NCBI GenBank assembly: GCA_951812965.1
Contig: OX638341.1
Coordinates: forward strand, 1,470,438 to 1,534,437
Source: an uncultured Pseudohongiella sp.
Lineage (GTDB): Bacteria; Pseudomonadota; Gammaproteobacteria; Pseudomonadales; Pseudohongiellaceae
DNA: 64,000 nt
Reading direction: 5' to 3'
Below are positions 9,575 to 19,268 of the stretch, piece after piece; the first letter of the stretch is position 1; each line of letters begins with the position of its first letter. A program made the position numbers and the translations under genes. The notes below the pieces were generated by a model. The model worked only from the letters and a program-made list of their open reading frames with translations. It was not told the origin of the DNA and did not search any database.

Positions 9575-11794
9575 CTACCACTGAAACTGGACGCGGCCGA
9601 ACAGGTTGATACCCTGGCCGTACATGCGGCTGCCTATCGGCACGACGCCTGCGGCAACGCGATTGAAGCCGGTCAGGTGGTTGACGTAATCGGTATCGAA
9701 CAGGTTTTCCGCGCCGAGGGTGAACGTGATGCCCTGGCCGGTCAGCCAGTTCAGGTAGACATTGGTCAGGTTGTAGCCATCGGTCGGGGCCGCATTGTTC
9801 TTGGGATTCATCGGGTCAAAGGTATTGGTGCGGGATACCTGGTCCTGTTTCAGCACGATAACCTGCTCGATCCGGGCCGAGAAGCCGCCAGCCTCATATA
9901 GCAGCGAAACGCGGGCGTTGTCCGGATTGACGCGGTACAGGTAATCCGCAACGTCACCGCGCTCGGCATTCACGTGGGAGGCCATGCCTTCCATGCGCCA
10001 GCGGTCGTTGAAGGTATAGCCGAAGCTCAGATCCACGCCGCGGAATTCCGCTTTGGTATTGGCGAACATGAGCGGTGTCGGGTCGCCGTTGGCATTGCGA
10101 CTGACGCCGACAACCGCCATATGCGTCGCTGGAACGCCCTGGATGTAGTCGTCGACGTCGCGCACGAAGAATCGGGGAGAGAACCAATCGACGCCATTGC
10201 TCCAGTCGAGGCCGAGTTCAAACTGGTCTGAGGTTTCCGGCCGCAGGTCGGGATTGCCGACATAGTTATTGCCGTCGCCGAGACCGGCATTGATTTCCAG
10301 CGGAATCCACAGATAGCGCTCCTGGTATAGCGGCGAGCGCGATTTGCGGGCGTAACCCGCTTCGACCACCAGGTTGGAGGTCAACTGGTAACGCGCCTTC
10401 GCGACCAGGTCATGATTGTCGTCGCTTTGCTCGCGGTCGCGCGAGTTGAAGCCCTGGCGCAACATCCATACCGCCCGCGGCGGTGTGCCCATGCCCCACA
10501 TGGCAGGATTCATGTCCACCAGCCGGGCGGGAAATGCATCCACTTCGCCGGCGCTCATATCCACCTGCTCCACGCGGCCGCCGAATTCGACGTACCAATC
10601 GTTACTCAGAATCGCCGACCATTGAGCGAAAACGGACTTGCTGTCGGTCGCAACGCCATTGAAATTTTCCACGAAGAACGGTGCGAAATCCGGGTCGCTG
10701 ACGAGTACGTCGTGCTCGCCGTCCTTGCCTTCGGCGCCGACTTCGAGCAGTCCCGGGCCGACTTCGAGGTCGAAGGCCAGCCGGAAACCGGATTCTTCGC
10801 TTTCCGCGAACGCGAAGCGCTTGTCGTCGCCGACGAATGGCGGCAATGGCAGGCTGGAAAAATCGGGCGCCGGCCGCAGCAGGAAATTACTCATGCCATG
10901 TTCGATGTTCGACTGGTAAACGCCAAACTCGACGCCGAGATTTCCGACCTGCCCGTTGTATCTGAAATTGAAGGTGTCGGTGTCGAACCAATCGATGTCC
11001 ATGGGCAGGGTGGGCGTGCCGCTGTCCTCGGTTTCGATGCGATGGGCGTCGATGAGGACTTCGTGGGAGCCATTGCGGAATCCATAGCCGACTCCGTAAA
11101 TTGCGCGGCTGTACTGGGTTGCGGCCACCTCTCCTTCGGCTGATTCGTAATTGTCGCCCTGGTCGAGATTACCGATGCCGTAGAGCCGGTGATTCGCGTT
11201 GCCGCCACCGAAAATCAGCGAACCGCTGGTACTCCCCGCGGCGGAGCCGGCCGACAACTCGGAATCGCCTTGCCAGTCCCAGCCGGCGCCGTCATTGAAT
11301 GCGGGGCGTTTCCAGCTCGCCGTCGCGGCGCCGCCGATGCCGCCGCCGGTGGAAATCGAAGCGATGCCCTGTTCGACCACGAGGTCTTCCATCAGGGCCG
11401 AGGGGATATGGTGCAGGGGAGGCGCCATCCAGTTGGGGCCGCCGCCATGAATCAGCATGCCGTCGATACGCACATTGATGCGCGGACCGAACATGCCGCG
11501 ATATTGAATCTGCCCGGTCAGGGGGCCGTTGTGATTGGCGCCGCCGCCGGGAACGCGGTTGATCAGCAAGGCGGAATCCGCGCCGGAACTGGTGCGCTGG
11601 GCATTGAACTGGGTTTCCAGAAACTCCTGCCGCCCGACGACGCGAATTTCTCCTACTTCCTCGCCCTGTGCGAACAGCGGTGTGGATGCGACAAGCAAGA
11701 GCGGCGCAATTGCCACGGCAAGAACTGATCTGGTCCCCGGCACGGGTTCTCTCCGGTATCTACTTGAAAGTGCGCAAATTATAGGTTTGCTCAT
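9575..11794 (-). CDS. TonB-dependent outer membrane receptor
   Basis: 739 residues. The leader ends near APLLLVASTPLFAQ, followed by a TonB box-like EEVGEIRVVGRQEF. The plug domain (~55-165) contains QYRGMFGPRINVRIDGMLIH and the C-terminus is ...FGRVQFQW, ending in the aromatic residue expected of an outer membrane beta-barrel. It would import a chelated metal or small nutrient with TonB-ExbBD energy. The specificity is not readable. It converges with the cyclase gene. Confidence 0.85.
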   Translation of the reverse strand: MSKPIICALSSRYRREPVPGTRSVLAVAIAPLLLVASTPLFAQGEEVGEIRVVGRQEFLETQFNAQRTSSGADSALLINRVPGGGANHNGPLTGQIQYRGMFGPRINVRIDGMLIHGGGPNWMAPPLHHIPSALMEDLVVEQGIASISTGGGIGGAATASWKRPAFNDGAGWDWQGDSELSAGSAAGSTSGSLIFGGGNANHRLYGIGNLDQGDNYESAEGEVAATQYSRAIYGVGYGFRNGSHEVLIDAHRIETEDSGTPTLPMDIDWFDTDTFNFRYNGQVGNLGVEFGVYQSNIEHGMSNFLLRPAPDFSSLPLPPFVGDDKRFAFAESEESGFRLAFDLEVGPGLLEVGAEGKDGEHDVLVSDPDFAPFFVENFNGVATDSKSVFAQWSAILSNDWYVEFGGRVEQVDMSAGEVDAFPARLVDMNPAMWGMGTPPRAVWMLRQGFNSRDREQSDDNHDLVAKARYQLTSNLVVEAGYARKSRSPLYQERYLWIPLEINAGLGDGNNYVGNPDLRPETSDQFELGLDWSNGVDWFSPRFFVRDVDDYIQGVPATHMAVVGVSRNANGDPTPLMFANTKAEFRGVDLSFGYTFNDRWRMEGMASHVNAERGDVADYLYRVNPDNARVSLLYEAGGFSARIEQVIVLKQDQVSRTNTFDPMNPKNNAAPTDGYNLTNVYLNWLTGQGITFTLGAENLFDTDYVNHLTGFNRVAAGVVPIGSRMYGQGINLFGRVQFQW

Positions 11795-11897
11795 GCCGGA
11801 ATCCGATGTGGCATATTGTCACAGCACTGACGGGTAACGCGTGAATCCGCGGGCGATTCGCGGTAAATTTGACAAGTTGAATGACACTTCGAGACTA

Positions 11898-12929
11898 ATG
11901 GGAAACATGCCGGTTCCGTTCCGCATCCTGATTCCGCTATTGGCTCTGCACTTGCTGCCGGGGCAGGCCGCACTTGCGCTTCAACCTGAGGCAAGCGAGG
12001 AGTCAATGCCCGAGGCGAGCGAAGAATCTCTCGCCCTGGCAAGGGAACTGGAACAACGCGAACGGCACGTGGAGAATCTGCGCGGCGAACTCGGTGTCTA
12101 CCATCCCGCCCTGGAGGAAGCCTACGGCGAACTCGGCGGCTTCTATCTCGAACTGGAAGATTACGAACAGTCGATTTCCATCTACAACGATGCGCTTGAA
12201 ATCGCGCGCATTAACGAAGGGCTCTACAGCGAATCGCAACTGCGCATCATCGACGCGATGATCACCGGCAACGAAGGCCTTGCCGATTGGGAATCGGTCG
12301 ACGATCTGCACCAATTCCGCTACCACATGGCGAGCCGTCTGTGGGAATTGACCGACAGCCGCCACCTGGCCGCGATCGGAACCTGGGGCGACTGGAAAAT
12401 GAGATCGATCCGGGACGACCTGCTCGGCGACAGCAGTTGGGGCGTTCAGGCGGCGATAGACGATGCGGGTTCGGTCTACCGGCGCGCAATTGCCGCACTC
12501 GAGCTGGAGCCGGAAGCGCGCCCGCGCGATGTGGCCAACCTGGTGCGCGGCAAGGCCGAACTCGACATTTACATGATGCGTGCGGTCGCCAATACGCCCT
12601 ACAACTATTTTCCTTCGAGCGTGCCTCGTTATGTAAACCAGATGCGCTGCCGCATGGTGCCCGGTCCCAACGGCCAGGCGGTGCGGCAATGCGTGAACGT
12701 GCAAGTGGAGAACCCGCGCTTTCGCAGTTCCCAGCGCGACAACAAGCGCATCGCAATGACGCGCTATTCAAACGCGATCAAAAGCGGTATCGAAAGGCTG
12801 ACCGCGATCCGTGACGGCGAAAACGGTCTTTCCCGGTCGGAGCTGGCGGAAATCGATGCCCAGATCGCGCAACTCGAAGCGGAAAACCAGCAGAATCTCC
12901 GCCGCGGCCGCCGCGGCTTGCTGTTCTGA
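11898..12929 (+). CDS. exported TPR-like protein of unknown function
   Basis: About 343 residues from the ATG at 11898 (MGNMPVPFRILIPLLALHLL, a signal peptide); an in-frame GTG at 11841 would add 19 non-hydrophobic residues. Residues ~60-110 (EEAYGELGGFYLELEDYEQS...YNDALEIARI) match a tetratricopeptide repeat pair. The middle has RYHMASRLWELTD and the end is charged and coiled-coil-like (ELAEIDAQIAQLEAENQQNL). Probably a periplasmic scaffold. It faces away from the TonB receptor, so the two may share a divergent promoter region. Confidence 0.65.
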   Translation: MGNMPVPFRILIPLLALHLLPGQAALALQPEASEESMPEASEESLALARELEQRERHVENLRGELGVYHPALEEAYGELGGFYLELEDYEQSISIYNDALEIARINEGLYSESQLRIIDAMITGNEGLADWESVDDLHQFRYHMASRLWELTDSRHLAAIGTWGDWKMRSIRDDLLGDSSWGVQAAIDDAGSVYRRAIAALELEPEARPRDVANLVRGKAELDIYMMRAVANTPYNYFPSSVPRYVNQMRCRMVPGPNGQAVRQCVNVQVENPRFRSSQRDNKRIAMTRYSNAIKSGIERLTAIRDGENGLSRSELAEIDAQIAQLEAENQQNLRRGRRGLLF

Positions 12930-12961
12930 GCGCCCGCCAAGGTTCAGATTCAAGGGAGACT

Positions 12962-13038
12962 GTAGGGGCGAGGCATGCCTCGCCCGCGAATGGCCCCGTC
13001 ACCGCGCAACTGACGGGCGACGCATGCGTCGCCCCTAC
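12962..13038. repeat. dispersed palindrome pair (BIME-like), copies 3 and 4
   Basis: Two palindromes at 12966-12985 and 13015-13034 lie 49 bp apart. They are flanked outward by GTAG and CTAC. The second carries a compensatory pair of changes (GACGCATGCGTC), so its hairpin is kept. Confidence 0.9.
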
Positions 13039-13135
13039 CCAACCCGCACACGGCATGGACAAACTCCCCGATTCGTAGTACAAACAGCACTGTTCGACCG
13101 CAGTTTGCGGTAAGACACATGAATGGAGGAAACCC

Positions 13136-13669
13136 ATGTTGAAAATTGCCAGCCGACTGACCTGGCCGCTGCTGCTTTGTGCGGCGGCGCTCATAGGTCA
13201 TTCAGCAGTCGCGTTGGAAGAAGGAGACAGGGCGCCGGATTTTTCTCTCCCGGGCTCTGACGGCAACTCTTACAGCCTTTCCCAGTTCCTCGGGGAAAAG
13301 CCTGTTGTCATCGCTTTTTTCCCGAAAGCCTTTACCAGCGGCTGAACTCAGCAATGCAAGGCGCTGCGTGACAGTGCCGAGGAAATCCAGAAATACGATG
13401 TAGCGTATTTCATGGTCAGCGTGGATACGCTGGAAGACAATACCGAATTTGCCGAAATGAATGATGCCAGCTTTCCGATTCTGGCCAATCCCGAAAAGGA
13501 CATGGTTGAAGCGTATGGAGCGCTGATGCCGGCTGGATTCGCCAATCGCTGGACTTACTACATCGGTTCCGACGGCACCATCCTGCAGATCGACAGGGAT
13601 ACCGACCCGGAAACCGCCGGTGCGGACATGGCGCGGACCATGGGAGAACTGGGCTTCCCCCAGATCTGA
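13136..13669 (+). CDS. exported peroxiredoxin-like selenoprotein (in-frame TGA as Sec70)
   Basis: 177 residues if TGA at 13343-13345 is read as selenocysteine. The ribosome binding site GGAGG lies just before the ATG and a signal peptide covers ~1-26. The AhpC/TSA fold begins at GDRAPDFSLPGSDG. The TGA falls exactly at the peroxidatic position: PKAFTSG-U-TQQC matches PxxxTxxC, with a possible resolving Cys at 74. The same frame stays open after TGA for 107 codons with normal family sequence (YFMVSVDTLEDN, SFPILANPEKDM). A stem-loop suited to a bacterial SECIS follows the TGA. Role: reduces peroxides in the periplasm. The alternative is a nonsense mutation of a Cys codon. An intrinsic terminator follows the gene. 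Confidence 0.8.
13360..13378 (+). promoter_or_regulatory. candidate bacterial SECIS hairpin
   Basis: GGCGCTG (13360-13366) pairs fully with CAGTGCC (13372-13378) in RNA, with one G-U pair. The loop CGUGA contains the GU typical of bacterial SECIS apical loops. The loop begins 22 nt after the TGA, within the usual range. Confidence 0.65.
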
Positions 13670-13698
13670 GTTTCGCTGCAGGGATGAATTGAATTGAG

Positions 13699-13722
13699 AA
13701 AACCCGGCGCAAGCCGGGTTTT
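13699..13722 (+). terminator. intrinsic terminator after the peroxiredoxin
   Basis: AAAACCCGGC GCAA GCCGGGTTTT is a strong GC hairpin followed by a T run. Confidence 0.85.
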
Positions 13723-13733
13723 CGGCTTAGCCC

Positions 13734-14618
13734 ATGAAGAAGTCAGGTTTGCTGATCATTGCCGGCGTTGCGATCGTTTCGCTGGCCGCGCTCGTCTGGT
13801 TGAGTCTCAGTTTTGAAGAGCCGAGTGAACCTGTCACGCTGGTAATCGAACCTCCCGCTCCGATTTCGGCCGAGCCGGAGCCGGAACCCTCTCCACGCGC
13901 GGTTATTCCCCCCGCACAGACAGCGGTCACGGCGGTTGAACCTGCCGAAGAACCCGAACCCGTTATCGAAATCCCGGCGCAGCCCGAAGTCGAGCTCGTA
14001 CCGGAACCGCCGGCAGAATCCGACGCGCCCGAAGTCGTGCTGCCGAGCCTCAACGACAGCGACGGGATCGTGCGCGAGCGACTCCTGGCCTTGCGCGGCG
14101 GCGCTGTATTGCTCGGTTTGATCGCCGACGACCAGTTAATCCGCAAGTTCGTCGTATTCGTCGAAAACATCAGCCGCCACGAGTTTCCCCAGACCGATCT
14201 GCCGTATCGTTCCCTCGGCGTGGAAATGCCCGTGCGCGAACTCGACCAGAATCTGTTCCGGATGGAAGAGGACGCCTATACACGCTTCGACGGTTTCATC
14301 GACACGATGACGGCGGTCGATACCGAACAGGCCTATGCCTTGTACCGGCTGTTGCGGCCGTTGTTTCAGCAGGCCTATGCCGAAATCGGCTATCGCGGCC
14401 GTGATTTTGACGACGCCTTGCGCCAGGCGATCAACAATGTGCTGCAGGCAACCGATGTCGAAGGACCCTTCCAGTTGGTGAAGCCTTCGGTAATGTATCT
14501 GTTCGCGGATTCGGAACTCGAGAACGCCGACGCCGTGCACAAGCAATTGATCCGCATCGGTCCCCGCAACAGCACCCGCCTGATGGCCAAACTGGCCGAA
14601 TTCGTCGTCTTGTTGTAG
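13734..14618 (+). CDS. DUF3014 family membrane-anchored protein
   Basis: 294 residues. A single N-terminal membrane segment (~5-25) is followed by a Pro/Glu-rich linker (~30-105) and a globular DUF3014 domain (~105-290). Landmarks are LIADDQLIRKFVVFVENIS and VDTEQAYALYRLLRPLFQQAY. The family function is unknown; the linker suggests a domain held away from the inner membrane in the periplasm. Its TAG stop (14616-14618) lies in a TAGGGG context like that of the dispersed repeat, inside the first copy of a 34-bp tandem repeat. Confidence 0.8.
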   Translation: MKKSGLLIIAGVAIVSLAALVWLSLSFEEPSEPVTLVIEPPAPISAEPEPEPSPRAVIPPAQTAVTAVEPAEEPEPVIEIPAQPEVELVPEPPAESDAPEVVLPSLNDSDGIVRERLLALRGGAVLLGLIADDQLIRKFVVFVENISRHEFPQTDLPYRSLGVEMPVRELDQNLFRMEEDAYTRFDGFIDTMTAVDTEQAYALYRLLRPLFQQAYAEIGYRGRDFDDALRQAINNVLQATDVEGPFQLVKPSVMYLFADSELENADAVHKQLIRIGPRNSTRLMAKLAEFVVLL

Positions 14619-14690
14619 GGGTGTGCTGGCCGAAATTGTCGTCTTGATGTAGGGGTGTGCTGGCCGAAATTGTCGTCTTGATGTAGGGGC
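14593..14690. repeat. 34-bp tandem repeat, about 2.9 copies
   Basis: Units start TGGCCGAA at 14593, 14627 and 14661. The first copy holds the last codons and stop of the DUF3014 gene; the last runs into a dispersed palindrome (14683-14706). GTAGGGGTGTGC in the first two copies looks like a damaged edge of that palindrome. Confidence 0.85.
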
Positions 14691-14706
14691 GAGGCATGCC
14701 TCGCCC
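14683..14706. repeat. dispersed palindrome, copy 5
   Basis: An exact core at 14687-14706, preceded by GTAG. It sits just upstream of the sulfurtransferase gene. Confidence 0.9.
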
Positions 14707-14743
14707 GCGGATTCGCGCAAATTCCAATCCTGCGAGTACAAAC

Positions 14744-15616
14744 ATGAGCAAGCCTCCAAAATCAGATCTCGTCGTTCCAGCATCGCTGGTCGATGTCGCT
14801 TGGCTGGCCGAGAATCTGGCCGCGCCAAATCTCATCGTGCTCGACGCCTCGATTCCGCCGGTTGTGCCGGGAATGAAATCGGTTAACGCCGATGGACCGT
14901 TCAAGGCGATTCCCGGCGCCCGCCGCTTCGATTACGACAAAGACGTGTGCAAGCCCGATACTTCGCTGCCGCATATGTTGCCGAGCCCTGAACTGTTTGA
15001 GCAGAAAGTGCGAGAACTTGGCGTCAACGCGGATTCAGCCCTGGTCGTGTACGACGATTGCGGCATGTACGCCAGCCCGCGGGCGTGGTGGATGTTCCGC
15101 GCCATGGGCCACGACAATGTTGCGGTATTGAGCGGAGGCTTGCCAGCCTGGGTAGCAGCAGGCCAACCGCTGACGAATGCGCTGGCGGAAGCGGCGACGG
15201 CCGGCGATTTTGCCGCCAACTTCAGGCCGCATCTGGTCAGCGATTACCGGACGGTGCTGGAAGCGCTGAACGATGACTCGCGCAAGGTGCTCGATGCTCG
15301 TTCACCGGGCCGCTTCAAGGGGGTCGACCCCGAACCGCGGCCGGGACTGCGCGGCGGACATATGCCCAAAGCCGGCAATCTGCCGTTCGTCCGACTGCTG
15401 GAAAACGGCGCTATGAAGCCGCCCGAAGAACTGCGCGAGATATTCGCCGAGTTCGGCGCTCCCGGCCGCCGCCTCATCAGCAGTTGTGGCACCGGCATCA
15501 CCGCCTGTGTGATCGCTCTTGCCGCCCATGAGGCCGGCCTGGACGACGTCTCGGTCTACGATGGCTCCTGGGTCGAATGGGGCACTCCGGGTCACTTGCC
15601 TGTGGTTGTTGAGTAG
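14744..15616 (+). CDS. thiosulfate / 3-mercaptopyruvate sulfurtransferase
   Basis: 290 residues from the ATG at 14744; an upstream in-frame start lies inside the palindrome and is rejected. Two tandem rhodanese domains are present. The catalytic loop SSCGTGITACV carries Cys248, and CGTGITA matches the CG[ST]G[VI]TA motif of mercaptopyruvate sulfurtransferases. It transfers sulfur from thiosulfate or 3-mercaptopyruvate to cyanide or thiols. No signal peptide, so cytoplasmic. Another rhodanese-type gene follows after 80 bp with a repeat element between. Confidence 0.85.
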   Translation: MSKPPKSDLVVPASLVDVAWLAENLAAPNLIVLDASIPPVVPGMKSVNADGPFKAIPGARRFDYDKDVCKPDTSLPHMLPSPELFEQKVRELGVNADSALVVYDDCGMYASPRAWWMFRAMGHDNVAVLSGGLPAWVAAGQPLTNALAEAATAGDFAANFRPHLVSDYRTVLEALNDDSRKVLDARSPGRFKGVDPEPRPGLRGGHMPKAGNLPFVRLLENGAMKPPEELREIFAEFGAPGRRLISSCGTGITACVIALAAHEAGLDDVSVYDGSWVEWGTPGHLPVVVE

Positions 15617-15624
15617 CGGGACGG

Positions 15625-15671
15625 CCCCCACCAAATTCGCTTTGCGAATTTGACTCCCCCGGAGGGGGAGT
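15625..15671. repeat. second intergenic repeat family, copy A
   Basis: CCCCCACCAAA is followed by a hairpin (AAATTCGC TTT GCGAATTT, 15633-15651) and then CTCCCCCGGAGGGGGAG (15654-15670). An inverted copy with a different central hairpin lies at 63274-63320. Confidence 0.75.
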
Positions 15672-15697
15672 GGTTGCGAGCTTCGGGAAGAATTGCG

Positions 15698-16687
15698 ATG
15701 AATGAATCGATGGGGATAGTGGTCAGCACCTTTTACCGGTTCGCTGCGCTGCCCGACTTTCGCTCGCTGAGGGAACCCCTGCACGAAGATCTTCTGCGCA
15801 ATGACGTGCGCGGCACCGTATTGCTCGCAGCCGAAGGCATCAATGGCACTGTTGCGGGCTCCCGCGAGGGGATAGACGCCGTGCTCGGAACTATTCGCGC
15901 CGATTCGCGCTTGCGCGACCTGCGCACGAGGGAATCCCGCAGCGAGGAAAATCCCTTCTATCGAACCCGGGTCAAGCTGAAAAAGGAAATCGTCACCATG
16001 GGCGAACCTGACATTGACCCGCGGTTCATGGCGGGCGCATATGTTTCTCCGGAAAGATGGAACGAGTTGATCGACGATCCCGAAGTGCTGGTGCTCGACA
16101 CGCGCAATCACTACGAAGTGCAGATCGGCAGTTTCGAAAACGCGGTCAATCCGGAAACCGACTCTTTCCGCGAGTTTCCGGAATACGTTCGCAAGAACCT
16201 GGATCCGGACAAACATCGCAGAATCGCCATGTTCTGCACCGGCGGTATCCGCTGCGAGAAATCCACCGCCTGGCTCAAGCAGCAGGGATTCGACGAGGTG
16301 TACCACCTGCAAGGCGGCATTCTGAACTACCTGGAAAGCGTGCCGCCGGAAGCCTCGCGCTGGCGCGGGGAATGTTTCGTGTTCGATAACCGCATCACCG
16401 TGGACCACCGATTGGAGCCGGGCTCCTACGATCAATGCCACGCCTGCCGCATGCCCATTTCAGACGAAGACAAGCAAAGCCCGCATTTTGAGAAGGGAGT
16501 CAGTTGCCCGCATTGCCACGATCGGCAGACCATTGAGCGTGCCGAGCGATTCGCCGAGCGCCAGCGCCAGGTCGACATCGCCCGGGAACGGGGCGAGCAG
16601 CATATCGGCCAGGATATGGACGGACTCATGCGCAAACGCAGGCAGGAAAAATTGCGCCACAAGGAAGCACAGCGGAACAATTCGTAG
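15698..16687 (+). CDS. trhO: tRNA uridine(34) hydroxylase, rhodanese family
   Basis: 329 residues from the ATG at 15698, with GGGAAG as ribosome binding site 7 nt upstream; the longer frame from 15650 runs through a repeat. It has the TrhO/YceA layout: an N-terminal domain ([15 protein letters not shown]), a rhodanese domain with [12 protein letters not shown] and catalytic Cys180, and a C-terminal CHAC...CPHC cysteine pair. TrhO makes 5-hydroxyuridine at position 34 of tRNAs using oxygen. The stop TAG (16685-16687) is the edge of a dispersed repeat. Confidence 0.88.
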
Positions 16688-16840
16688 GGGCGAGGCATGC
16701 CTCGCCCGGAATTTGCATGTGGCAGCGGTAAGTCTCGGGCGAGCAAGAGCAGCGAAACAATTCGTAGGGGCGAGGCACGCCTCGCCCGGAATTTGCATGT
16801 GGCAGCGGTGAGTCTCGGGCGAGGCATGCCTCGCCCCTAC
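16671..16840. repeat. dispersed palindrome cluster (copies 6-8) in an 80-bp tandem duplication
   Basis: Cores lie at 16688-16707, 16768-16787 (one mismatch) and 16817-16836. Segment 16671-16743 is repeated at 16751-16823, offset exactly 80 bp. The second copy carries AGCGAAACAATTCGTAG, a duplicate of the last codons and stop of trhO (AGCGGAACAATTCGTAG). A half core (GGGCGAG, 16737-16743) sits at the junction. Confidence 0.88.
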
Positions 16841-16892
16841 AGGTGAATTTGGTTATAGTCGGGCGGTACTCCGTTCCCAAGGTGTCCGGCCG

Positions 16893-19268
16893 ATGAATTC
16901 TGCCACAAGTGTGAAACCGCCTCGTATCTTTCCTGTCATCCTCGGCCTCATCGCCGTGCCGCTCCTGGTCGGCGGACTGCAACTCGTCTTTCTGGAGGGC
17001 TCGATGTATTACGTCATCTCGGGCCTGGTGCTGCTGTCCTGCGCGCATCGGATCTGGCGCAGTCAGCCCTCTGGCGCGTGGCTCTACGGCGGCTTTCTGG
17101 TGGCCACCATTGTCTGGTCCTTATGGGAAGCGGGCGCCGATCCATGGGCGTTGGCGCCGCGCATTCTGCCGTTTGTCGCACTTGGCCTCTGGTTTATCAC
17201 GCCGTGGTTCCGCAACTCGCTGCATCAGGGCTCGCCGCCTCCGTTACTGCAATCGAGTATCGCCAAATGGTCGATACCGGTAACCGCGCTGGTCGCGGTC
17301 TACGCCATCTGGAGCGGCGTCGGTTATGAAGTGAACGAACTCGCCCCGCGCAGCGGCGTAAATACGATAAGTACGCACACCGACTGGCCTGCTTACGGCA
17401 ACGACCGGGGCGGCAGCCGTTACTCTCCGCTGGACCAGATAAACGCCGGGAACGTGGCCGATCTTGAAGTGGCGTGGACTTATCGTACCGGCCAGGGCGG
17501 TGCATTCAAGGCGACTCCACTGCAAGTCGGGAATCTGCTGTATGTCTGCACCGGCGGCAATGTCGTTGTTGCTCTCGACGCCGACAGCGGCGAACTCCGC
17601 TGGCAATTCGACCCACTGATCGATCCGGCTCATCTCGAGACTGCGCGCTATTTTACTACCGGCTGCCGCGGCGTTTCGTATTACCAGGCGCCGCAGGAAT
17701 ACCAGGGCGAATGCCGGGAACGGATTCTTACGGCAACCACCGACACCCGCCTGATCGCGCTCGATGCGCTCAGCGGTGAGCGTTGCCTGGGATTCGGCGA
17801 CCAGGGCGAGGTCGATCTGACCATCAACATGGGCAACGATCCGCGTATTTTCAATTTCCAGACATCGCCCCCCGGCATCGTGCGCGGCAATGCCGTGGTC
17901 GGCGGCTGGGTGTTCGATAACCAGTCGGTGGGCGAGCCTTCGGGGGTGGTGCGCGCCTTCAACGCCATCACCGGGGAATTCGCCTGGGCCTGGGACATGG
18001 GTCGTCCCGGCGAACACGGAGAACCGCTGGCGGGGGAGGTCTACACTCGCGGCACACCGAATGTGTGGAGCCTGTTCAGCGTCGATGAGGAACTCGGGCT
18101 GATCTATGCGCCCACCGGCAACGAGACACCGGATTACTTCGGCGGCTATCGCATGGAAGCCAGCGAGCAGTACGCCAGTTCCGTGGTCGCCATCGACGGC
18201 GAGACGGGCTCGGTGCGCTGGTCTTTCCAGACCGTGCATCACGACCTGTGGGACTGGGACGTACCCTCGCAGCCGACGCTGATTGATCTGCCCGGCGATA
18301 ACGGCGAAAAGGTAAAGGCCGTACTCGTGCCGACCAAACGCTCCGAAGTATTCGTGCTGAACCGGGAAACCGGCGAGCCGATTTTCGATGTCGAGGAACT
18401 GCCGGTGCCACAGGAAGGCGGCGTACCCGAAGACTATGTCGCCCCGACACAGCCCTTTTCCACCGAGCTACCGCACTTCCGCAACGACATCACCGAAAAC
18501 ATGATGTGGGGCGTAACGCCTTTCGACCAACTCTGGTGCCGCATCGAATACAAGAAGATGCGCTATGAAGGACATTTCACCGTGCCGGGCACCGAGCCTA
18601 TCTTCCAGTTCCCCGGCAATGCCGGCGGGCATAACTGGGGTAGCGTCAGTGTCGATCAGGTCAACAACATCATGGTCGTCAATCCGATGATCGTCGGTAA
18701 CCGACTAATCCTGATTCCGCGCGACGAATTGCCGGAAGGCGTCCAGGGTAATCAGTTGGGCACGCCGTATTCCCACGATACCCGGCGCTTCATGTCGCCG
18801 CTCGGCATTCCCTGCAACCAGCCGCCTTTCGGCATCATGGCCGCGGTCGATCTCGAAACCGGCGATCTGCTCTGGGAGCGTCCGATAGGCCTGGCCAAGG
18901 ACAGCGGCCCCTGGGGCATTCCAACACGCGTCCCGTTGACTATCGGCACACCGCAAAGCGGCGGCACCGTCACCACCGCGGGCGGCCTGATCTTCTCCTC
19001 CGGTTCGTTCGACAATTCCGTGCGCGCGGTCCATATCATGGACGGAGAGGAGTTATGGCGCGCCGACCTGCCGTTTACCGCGCATGCTACGCCGATGACC
19101 TATCTTTCGCCGGCCGGCGAACAGACCGTGGTGGTGACCGTTCCAGTCTTCAATTCGACATCGGGCTCGGGATTTCGCGCCTTGCCCGCTGACCAGGAAG
19201 ATCCGCAAGGCGGCTACATCATCGCTTACCGACTTCCGCGCATGGCCCAGGCGCCGGAAGAACTCTAG
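16893..19268 (+). CDS. membrane-bound PQQ-dependent dehydrogenase (glucose/quinate/shikimate type)
   Basis: 791 residues, the usual length of the mGDH family. Four or five N-terminal membrane segments (~10-130) precede an eight-bladed PQQ propeller starting at DWPAYGNDRGGSRYSPLDQI. Landmarks are DADSGELRWQFDP, TGCRGVSYY, ATGNETPDYFGGYR-like text (PTGNETPDYFGG), VHHDLWDWDVPSQP and GGTVTTAGGLIFSSG. It oxidises a sugar or cyclic polyol in the periplasm and passes electrons to ubiquinone. The exact substrate is not readable. Its stop overlaps that of the convergent hydrolase in a shared CTAG (19265-19268). Confidence 0.9.
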   Translation: MNSATSVKPPRIFPVILGLIAVPLLVGGLQLVFLEGSMYYVISGLVLLSCAHRIWRSQPSGAWLYGGFLVATIVWSLWEAGADPWALAPRILPFVALGLWFITPWFRNSLHQGSPPPLLQSSIAKWSIPVTALVAVYAIWSGVGYEVNELAPRSGVNTISTHTDWPAYGNDRGGSRYSPLDQINAGNVADLEVAWTYRTGQGGAFKATPLQVGNLLYVCTGGNVVVALDADSGELRWQFDPLIDPAHLETARYFTTGCRGVSYYQAPQEYQGECRERILTATTDTRLIALDALSGERCLGFGDQGEVDLTINMGNDPRIFNFQTSPPGIVRGNAVVGGWVFDNQSVGEPSGVVRAFNAITGEFAWAWDMGRPGEHGEPLAGEVYTRGTPNVWSLFSVDEELGLIYAPTGNETPDYFGGYRMEASEQYASSVVAIDGETGSVRWSFQTVHHDLWDWDVPSQPTLIDLPGDNGEKVKAVLVPTKRSEVFVLNRETGEPIFDVEELPVPQEGGVPEDYVAPTQPFSTELPHFRNDITENMMWGVTPFDQLWCRIEYKKMRYEGHFTVPGTEPIFQFPGNAGGHNWGSVSVDQVNNIMVVNPMIVGNRLILIPRDELPEGVQGNQLGTPYSHDTRRFMSPLGIPCNQPPFGIMAAVDLETGDLLWERPIGLAKDSGPWGIPTRVPLTIGTPQSGGTVTTAGGLIFSSGSFDNSVRAVHIMDGEELWRADLPFTAHATPMTYLSPAGEQTVVVTVPVFNSTSGSGFRALPADQEDPQGGYIIAYRLPRMAQAPEEL

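Follow-up and report, generated by a model that had tools for sequence, protein, structure and literature searches.

Gene Organization at the Locus

The DNA considered here is a 64,000-nucleotide stretch (the window) of contig OX638341.1 from an uncultured Pseudohongiella sp., probably a marine bacterium. On its plus strand, a single frame begins with the ATG at 13136 and has a TGA as codon 70 (13343–13345), after which another 107 codons lead to the stop, also a TGA, at 13667–13669. The features of the gene and its immediate flanks are as follows.

13125..13129, plus strand: GGAGG, ribosome-binding-like, 6 nt 5′ of the ATG, read from the sequence
13136..13669, plus strand: Sec-peroxiredoxin gene of 177 codons and a stop, codon 70 being the TGA read as Sec
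13136..13213, plus strand: probable signal peptide, about residues 1–26 (...SAVA/LEEG), judged by eye
13322..13345, plus strand: PKAFTSGU, the PxxxTxxU active-site motif (P63, T67, U70)
13343..13345, plus strand: in-frame TGA, Sec70, at the peroxidatic position in an alignment of 61 loci
13355..13357, plus strand: TGC, Cys74, at Sec+4 (UxxxC), the sole cysteine of the presumed mature part
13360..13378, plus strand: bSECIS hairpin, stem 13360–13366 with 13372–13378, loop CGUGA at 13367–13371
13699..13722, plus strand: terminator-like hairpin AAAACCCGGCGCAAGCCGGGTTTT, 3′ of the gene, read from the sequence

The initial annotation expected gene callers to split the gene, and table 11 indeed gives two ORFs, of 69 aa (13136–13345) and 85 aa (13412–13669). 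The frame is open for 107 codons past the TGA, as had been claimed, and a protein family profile match continues across it. Although seemingly broken by a stop, the segment is very probably the whole gene of an antioxidant enzyme. The hairpin at 13699–13722 is absent from the hairpins listed by the consensus scan, and Rfam has no match over cut-off in window positions 10000–17000.

The surroundings were compared by tblastn in the loci of 33 relatives, whose flanks are of unequal length. A TPR-like gene upstream was matched in 30 loci, and the downstream neighbours, DUF3014, rhodanese, and UPF0176 genes, in 28, 23, and 19; no redox partner is indicated among these neighbours. In the window, adjoining rhodanese-domain genes lie at 14696–16687, one with two matched rhodanese stretches and the other UPF0176, and a 34-nt unit in three tandem copies (14592–14693) overlaps the end of the DUF3014 gene. 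The REP-like palindromic repeat GGGCGAGGCATGCCTCGCCC occurs in five copies within 4 kb, one with a changed base, as follows.

12961–12991: repeat copy
14682–14712: repeat copy
16683–16713: repeat copy
16763–16793: repeat copy
16812–16842: repeat copy

Conservation of the In-Frame TGA

Relatives were collected by several scans. Of the 44 matches listed by the order scan (293 genomes, E 1e-40 or lower), 39 are stop-free and five have the TGA inside (own genome, G081, G137, G279, and G076). The class scan (369 genomes, E 1e-30) gave five matches, three with TGA (own genome, G621, and G603), and the phylum scan (398 genomes, E 1e-25) gave three, the own genome and two stop-free matches from the same class. 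A contig scan, made with patterns that have Cys at the site, returned 27 loci, every one with TGA. In the resulting 61 aligned loci, window included, codon 70 is TGA in 34, TGC or TGT in 27, and nothing else in any; this count leaves out 14 order-scan matches with unfetched loci and two extra phylum-scan matches. The TGA thus stands, conserved, where homologues have Cys, as is expected of a bacterial selenoprotein, and its placement at the peroxidatic Cys of a PxxxTxxC motif, originally read from the window alone, agrees with the alignment.

A pseudogene or a sequencing error, with the TGA a true or artefactual stop and the 3′ half decaying, would account for the pair of ORFs (69 and 85 aa) that a standard gene caller would see. 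This reading is barely credible. Exactly this codon is TGA in 33 loci of other genomes, and for that reason an error at 13343–13345 is very unlikely; the AhpC-TSA profile match runs through the TGA, and downstream of it codon differences are still mostly synonymous. Against relatives L020, L021, L022, and L023, the synonymous/non-synonymous counts of differing codons are 23/11, 24/15, 26/19, and 21/14 for the 107 downstream codons, and 4/5, 8/10, 7/7, and 10/9 for the 68 upstream codons, signal peptide included.

The bSECIS Hairpin

The stem, GGCGCUG/CAGUGCC, has seven base pairs, one of them G-U; its first base is the 15th nucleotide past the TGA. The 7-bp stem with a GU-containing loop, described at this distance in the initial annotation, is therefore present, and its loop is CGUGA. 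The bSECIS model summarized in a 2026 review of selenoproteins calls for a loop of 3–9 nt, a stem of 4–16 bp, a G in the first two loop positions, and a distance of 16–37 nt from the UGA (PMC13188914). The window hairpin agrees with all four, having a 5-nt loop, a 7-bp stem, G as the second loop base, and 21 nt between TGA and loop.

The loop CGTGA is found in all 34 TGA loci. In an alignment of the 19 distinct stem sequences, 94% of cells are paired, with a covariation score of 0.135; none of 500 shuffles attains either value. Double changes occur in three of the seven stem pairs (equalled in 9 of 500 shuffles), and the number of further stem pair types is unexceptional (reached in 83 of 500). 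The lowest pair is unformed in 6 of the 19 distinct rows and the second lowest in 2. The clearest paired change is in L082, which comes from another family and in which the apical pair around the same CGUGA loop is C-G, not G-C. Folding energy was rejected as evidence for the hairpin, since z is -0.71 and 42 of 200 shuffles fold with equal or greater stability.

In Sec genes, the hairpin also goes with frozen synonymous codons. For codons +6 to +10 (A-L-R-D-S), the mean identical-codon fraction among same-residue pairs is 0.96 in 32 Sec rows, and it is 0.54 for 69 other codons in these rows. The 27 Cys rows display no such freezing (stem codons 0.40 versus 0.45 elsewhere). Single frozen codons prove little, since in the Sec rows codon +31, outside the stem, is as frozen (0.998), and codon +3 is nearly so (0.93). 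The run of five adjacent frozen codons, confined to Sec genes, is the best single argument that the hairpin would act as a SECIS, as judged by sequence comparison.

Selenocysteine Machinery and Other Selenoprotein Candidates

The own genome is a single contig of 3,425,201 bases, 98% complete. It was proposed at the outset that missing sel genes or tRNA-Sec would count against a selenoprotein; all were found. The tRNA-Sec scores 65.8 bits, over cut-off, and ARAGORN reports it as tRNA-SeC with anticodon tca; SelA, SelB, and SelD each exceed their cut-off, the SelD match being stop-free. The host thus has selA, selB, selC, and selD. In 14 control genomes, the tRNA-Sec, SelB, and SelD searches give matches in all 14 under a loose E-value limit, and therefore only over-cut-off matches of these three are counted; by that standard, tRNA-Sec is found in 5, SelB in 2, and SelD in 2 of the controls. 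The SelA search matches in 2 of the 14.

Among genomes with the TGA form, 32 of 34 have SelA (5/5 + 25/27 + 2/2); among the genomes of Cys loci the figure is 8 of 27 (8/25 + 0/2), a difference with a Fisher p of 1.8e-7 when kinship is ignored. Eighteen further genomes have unfetched loci, and SelA is found in eight of them. The TGA-form genomes in which SelA was not found, G664 and G673, are two of 27 named draft genomes, and absent contigs are the likely reason. In genome G675 (C4:8188–9305) there is a second SelA copy, apparently in pieces, with a TGA within one piece.

A PF00578 search of the own genome gave 20 matches, five with an internal TGA, and PF10262 retrieved two SelW-like genes that each have CVQU. 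Besides the window gene, the TGA-containing genes are as follows.

C1:1313081 (L087), 945977 (L089), 60344 (L090), and 1156976 (L092): DWUPYC AhpC/TSA genes with TGA and a downstream hairpin
C1:1212524–1212730 (L104) and 1218042–1218248 (L105), minus strand: SelW-like genes with CVQU

The four UPYC genes are Prx-like, three long and one short. Two of the long ones have weak matches to DsbD_N (PF11412; 22.4 and 22.2 bits, cut-off 25), and the third was scanned for this domain without its C-terminal part. The two SelW-like genes are very similar and lie about 5.5 kb apart; in each, an 8-bp hairpin follows the TGA at a distance of 14 nt. The predicted fold of each of the six genes has a hairpin with an inner stem of 6 to 8 pairs. 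With the T of the TGA taken as base 1, this stem starts at base 18, exactly as in the window gene, and the loops have a G at the first or second position with a U next to it. With the window gene and the SelW-like pair included, the genome holds at least seven selenoprotein candidates. A Sec formate dehydrogenase was not seen in this genome, since all three molybdopterin oxidoreductase matches are stop-free.

Taken as an observation, the TGA gene with its hairpin is confirmed, and its reading as a selenoprotein gene is supported. Sec insertion is inferred from the machinery, the conservation of the hairpin, and the established bacterial mechanism. Decoding of the TGA as Trp or Cys, by suppression or an altered code, is highly improbable. 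It draws on the general possibility of stop read-through, and it is opposed by the Cys found at this site in 27 of 27 TGA-free relatives, by the Sec machinery encoded in the genome, and by the gene's own final stop, which is itself TGA. Sec insertion, in turn, fits the local hairpin with its frozen synonymous codons.

The Protein: Family, Active Site, and Probable Export

The read-through protein matches Pfam AhpC-TSA (PF00578) over residues 30–150 with 105 bits (cut-off 26, E 3.4e-30). In 31 aligned rows, from the 61 loci, P63, residue 70, and R138 are invariant, and T67 is kept in at least 90%. We take R138 to be the peroxiredoxin catalytic Arg. By its PF00578 match, PxxxTxx(C/U) motif, and conserved Arg, the protein belongs to the AhpC/TSA peroxiredoxins. 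Of the earlier designation, a peroxiredoxin-like selenoprotein, "selenoprotein" stands; "Prx-like", which denotes UxxC proteins, does not, for TxxU is the motif of a peroxiredoxin proper.

The presumed mature part offers only two redox candidates, U70 and C74. The position of Cys74 is Cys in all 61 loci (34 Sec and 27 Cys), and position +5 is Lys or Arg in the aligned loci. A structure model built with 31 rows (pLDDT 89.2) has a peroxiredoxin fold with residues 70 and 74 in one helix, 68–79; its best PDB matches are Bcp1, BcpB, BCP, Bcp4, and AhpE (including 3drn and 5epf). Model confidence is low over residues 1–20, in the presumed signal peptide. Relatives have a similar N-terminal hydrophobic stretch ending in an AxA-like sequence, and the window protein is probably exported, as judged from its sequence.

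It is conceivable, although unlikely, that the selenoprotein is instead a peroxidase that stays in the cytosol or is anchored to lipid, or that it serves in thiol:disulfide exchange and is no peroxidase. Such locations gain some room from export having been judged by eye. The exchange role is recommended by the fact that some AhpC/TSA proteins are thiol:disulfide oxidoreductases and by a ResA profile match (E 3.3e-7, below cut-off); however, the PxxxTxxU motif and invariant R138 are unlike the UxxC of Prx-like oxidoreductases, and the top structural matches are the BCP and AhpE peroxidases. We conclude, with high confidence, that the window gene encodes a peroxiredoxin with selenocysteine as its peroxidatic residue.

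We propose that the mRNA hairpin after the UGA would recruit SelB and Sec-tRNA-Sec, and that the ribosome would then insert Sec70 instead of terminating. The product, with its probable signal peptide, would act in the periplasm, where Sec70 may attack H2O2 or organic hydroperoxides and be converted to a selenenic acid. Cys74, one helical turn further, would resolve the selenenic acid to an internal selenenylsulfide, which a periplasmic thiol reductant may then reduce.

Comparison with Known Peroxiredoxins

Sec-Prx proteins with a TxxU motif (PF00578/COG1225 Bcp) have been known from marine samples since 2005, when 43 sequences were reported in the Sargasso Sea survey (PMC1088965). The GOS data set contains 253 (PMC2398784), and Sec-Prx is listed in the 2026 review (PMC13188914). 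The claim that such selenoproteins are known from marine metagenomes is thus borne out for TxxU Sec-Prx (PMC1088965, PMC2398784), which share with the window protein the Pfam family and the PxxxTxxU motif. In the portions of these two sources available to us, the Sargasso account gives the motif as TxxU only and mentions neither UxxxC nor a signal peptide (PMC1088965), and the GOS account mentions neither a signal peptide nor the periplasm (PMC2398784). It is quite possible that the Sargasso and GOS sequences include the UxxxC subfamily.

PrxU of Eubacterium acidaminophilum is, like the window protein, a Sec-containing peroxiredoxin (PMC9312934). Unlike PrxU, the window protein has a probable signal peptide and a second redox residue at +4. 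Against NCBIfam NF040737, presumably built on E. acidaminophilum PrxU, it scores 38.9 bits, outside the model (curated cut-off 270), and it reaches the cut-off of no NCBIfam model.

The best family and fold match is BCP/PrxQ (PRK09437, 77.9 bits, below the cut-off of 140). In a typical BCP/PrxQ, helix 2 carries the resolving Cys at Cp+5. The window family differs, since it is probably exported and its second Cys is, in all 61 loci, at +4 rather than at Cp+5. The Prx-like UxxC selenoproteins share the AhpC/TSA fold but have a thioredoxin-like UxxC motif and not TxxU with UxxxC; some are described as fused to a Pfam11412 domain (PMC9402790).

A search of the open-licence literature found no paper on periplasmic, signal-peptide-bearing peroxiredoxin selenoproteins of Gammaproteobacteria, on selenoproteins of Pseudohongiella, or on a CXXXC resolving cysteine in PrxQ-type peroxiredoxins. 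The combination of probable export and UxxxC was thus not met in the literature searched, as far as its available text goes, which is weak evidence of absence. The window protein is well supported as a sound new example within the known Sec-peroxiredoxin family, with an anatomy of its own (probable export, UxxxC).

Selenocysteine and Cysteine Forms within the Family

In a tree of 61 rows with outgroup, the window protein groups with L020, and the Pseudohongiella MAG protein L023 lies one step out, a placement that by itself makes a member of the Pseudohongiellaceae the probable source. Five sequences of the window's own family that have Cys lie among Sec forms, and SelA is present in four of the five genomes that encode them. 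The starred branches of this tree force at least two Sec/Cys changes. The own-family Cys forms suggest, from their placement, a switch from Sec to Cys. AU tests on 55 of the 61 rows, run after removal of the outgroup and of five rows with long branches, do not reject trees in which all Cys rows, all Sec rows, or the near Sec rows are kept together (p-AU 0.18, 0.24, and 0.20). A 2006 survey counted, for Prx, five Cys-to-Sec and no Sec-to-Cys conversions (table in PMC1794560); the window family may supply a Sec-to-Cys case.

We put forward tentatively, as a possibility that falls a little short of probable, that these proteins form a distinct subfamily of exported UxxxC selenoperoxidases, not of the PrxQ type, widespread in the Pseudohongiellaceae and nearby gammaproteobacteria and split by gene calling. 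Within one family, Sec would have gone back to Cys, with four of the five genomes concerned keeping SelA and the hairpin codons drifting. Automatic annotation readily splits or loses selenoprotein genes, and therefore the true form of the family may be missing from databases. Because close relatives carry Sec or Cys in the same CxxxC/UxxxC site, they are well suited, as a pair, to measurements of the contribution of selenium to a peroxiredoxin. If the proposal is true, they would amount to a natural experiment, with a before and an after, on the reasons for selenium use in a periplasmic peroxidase.
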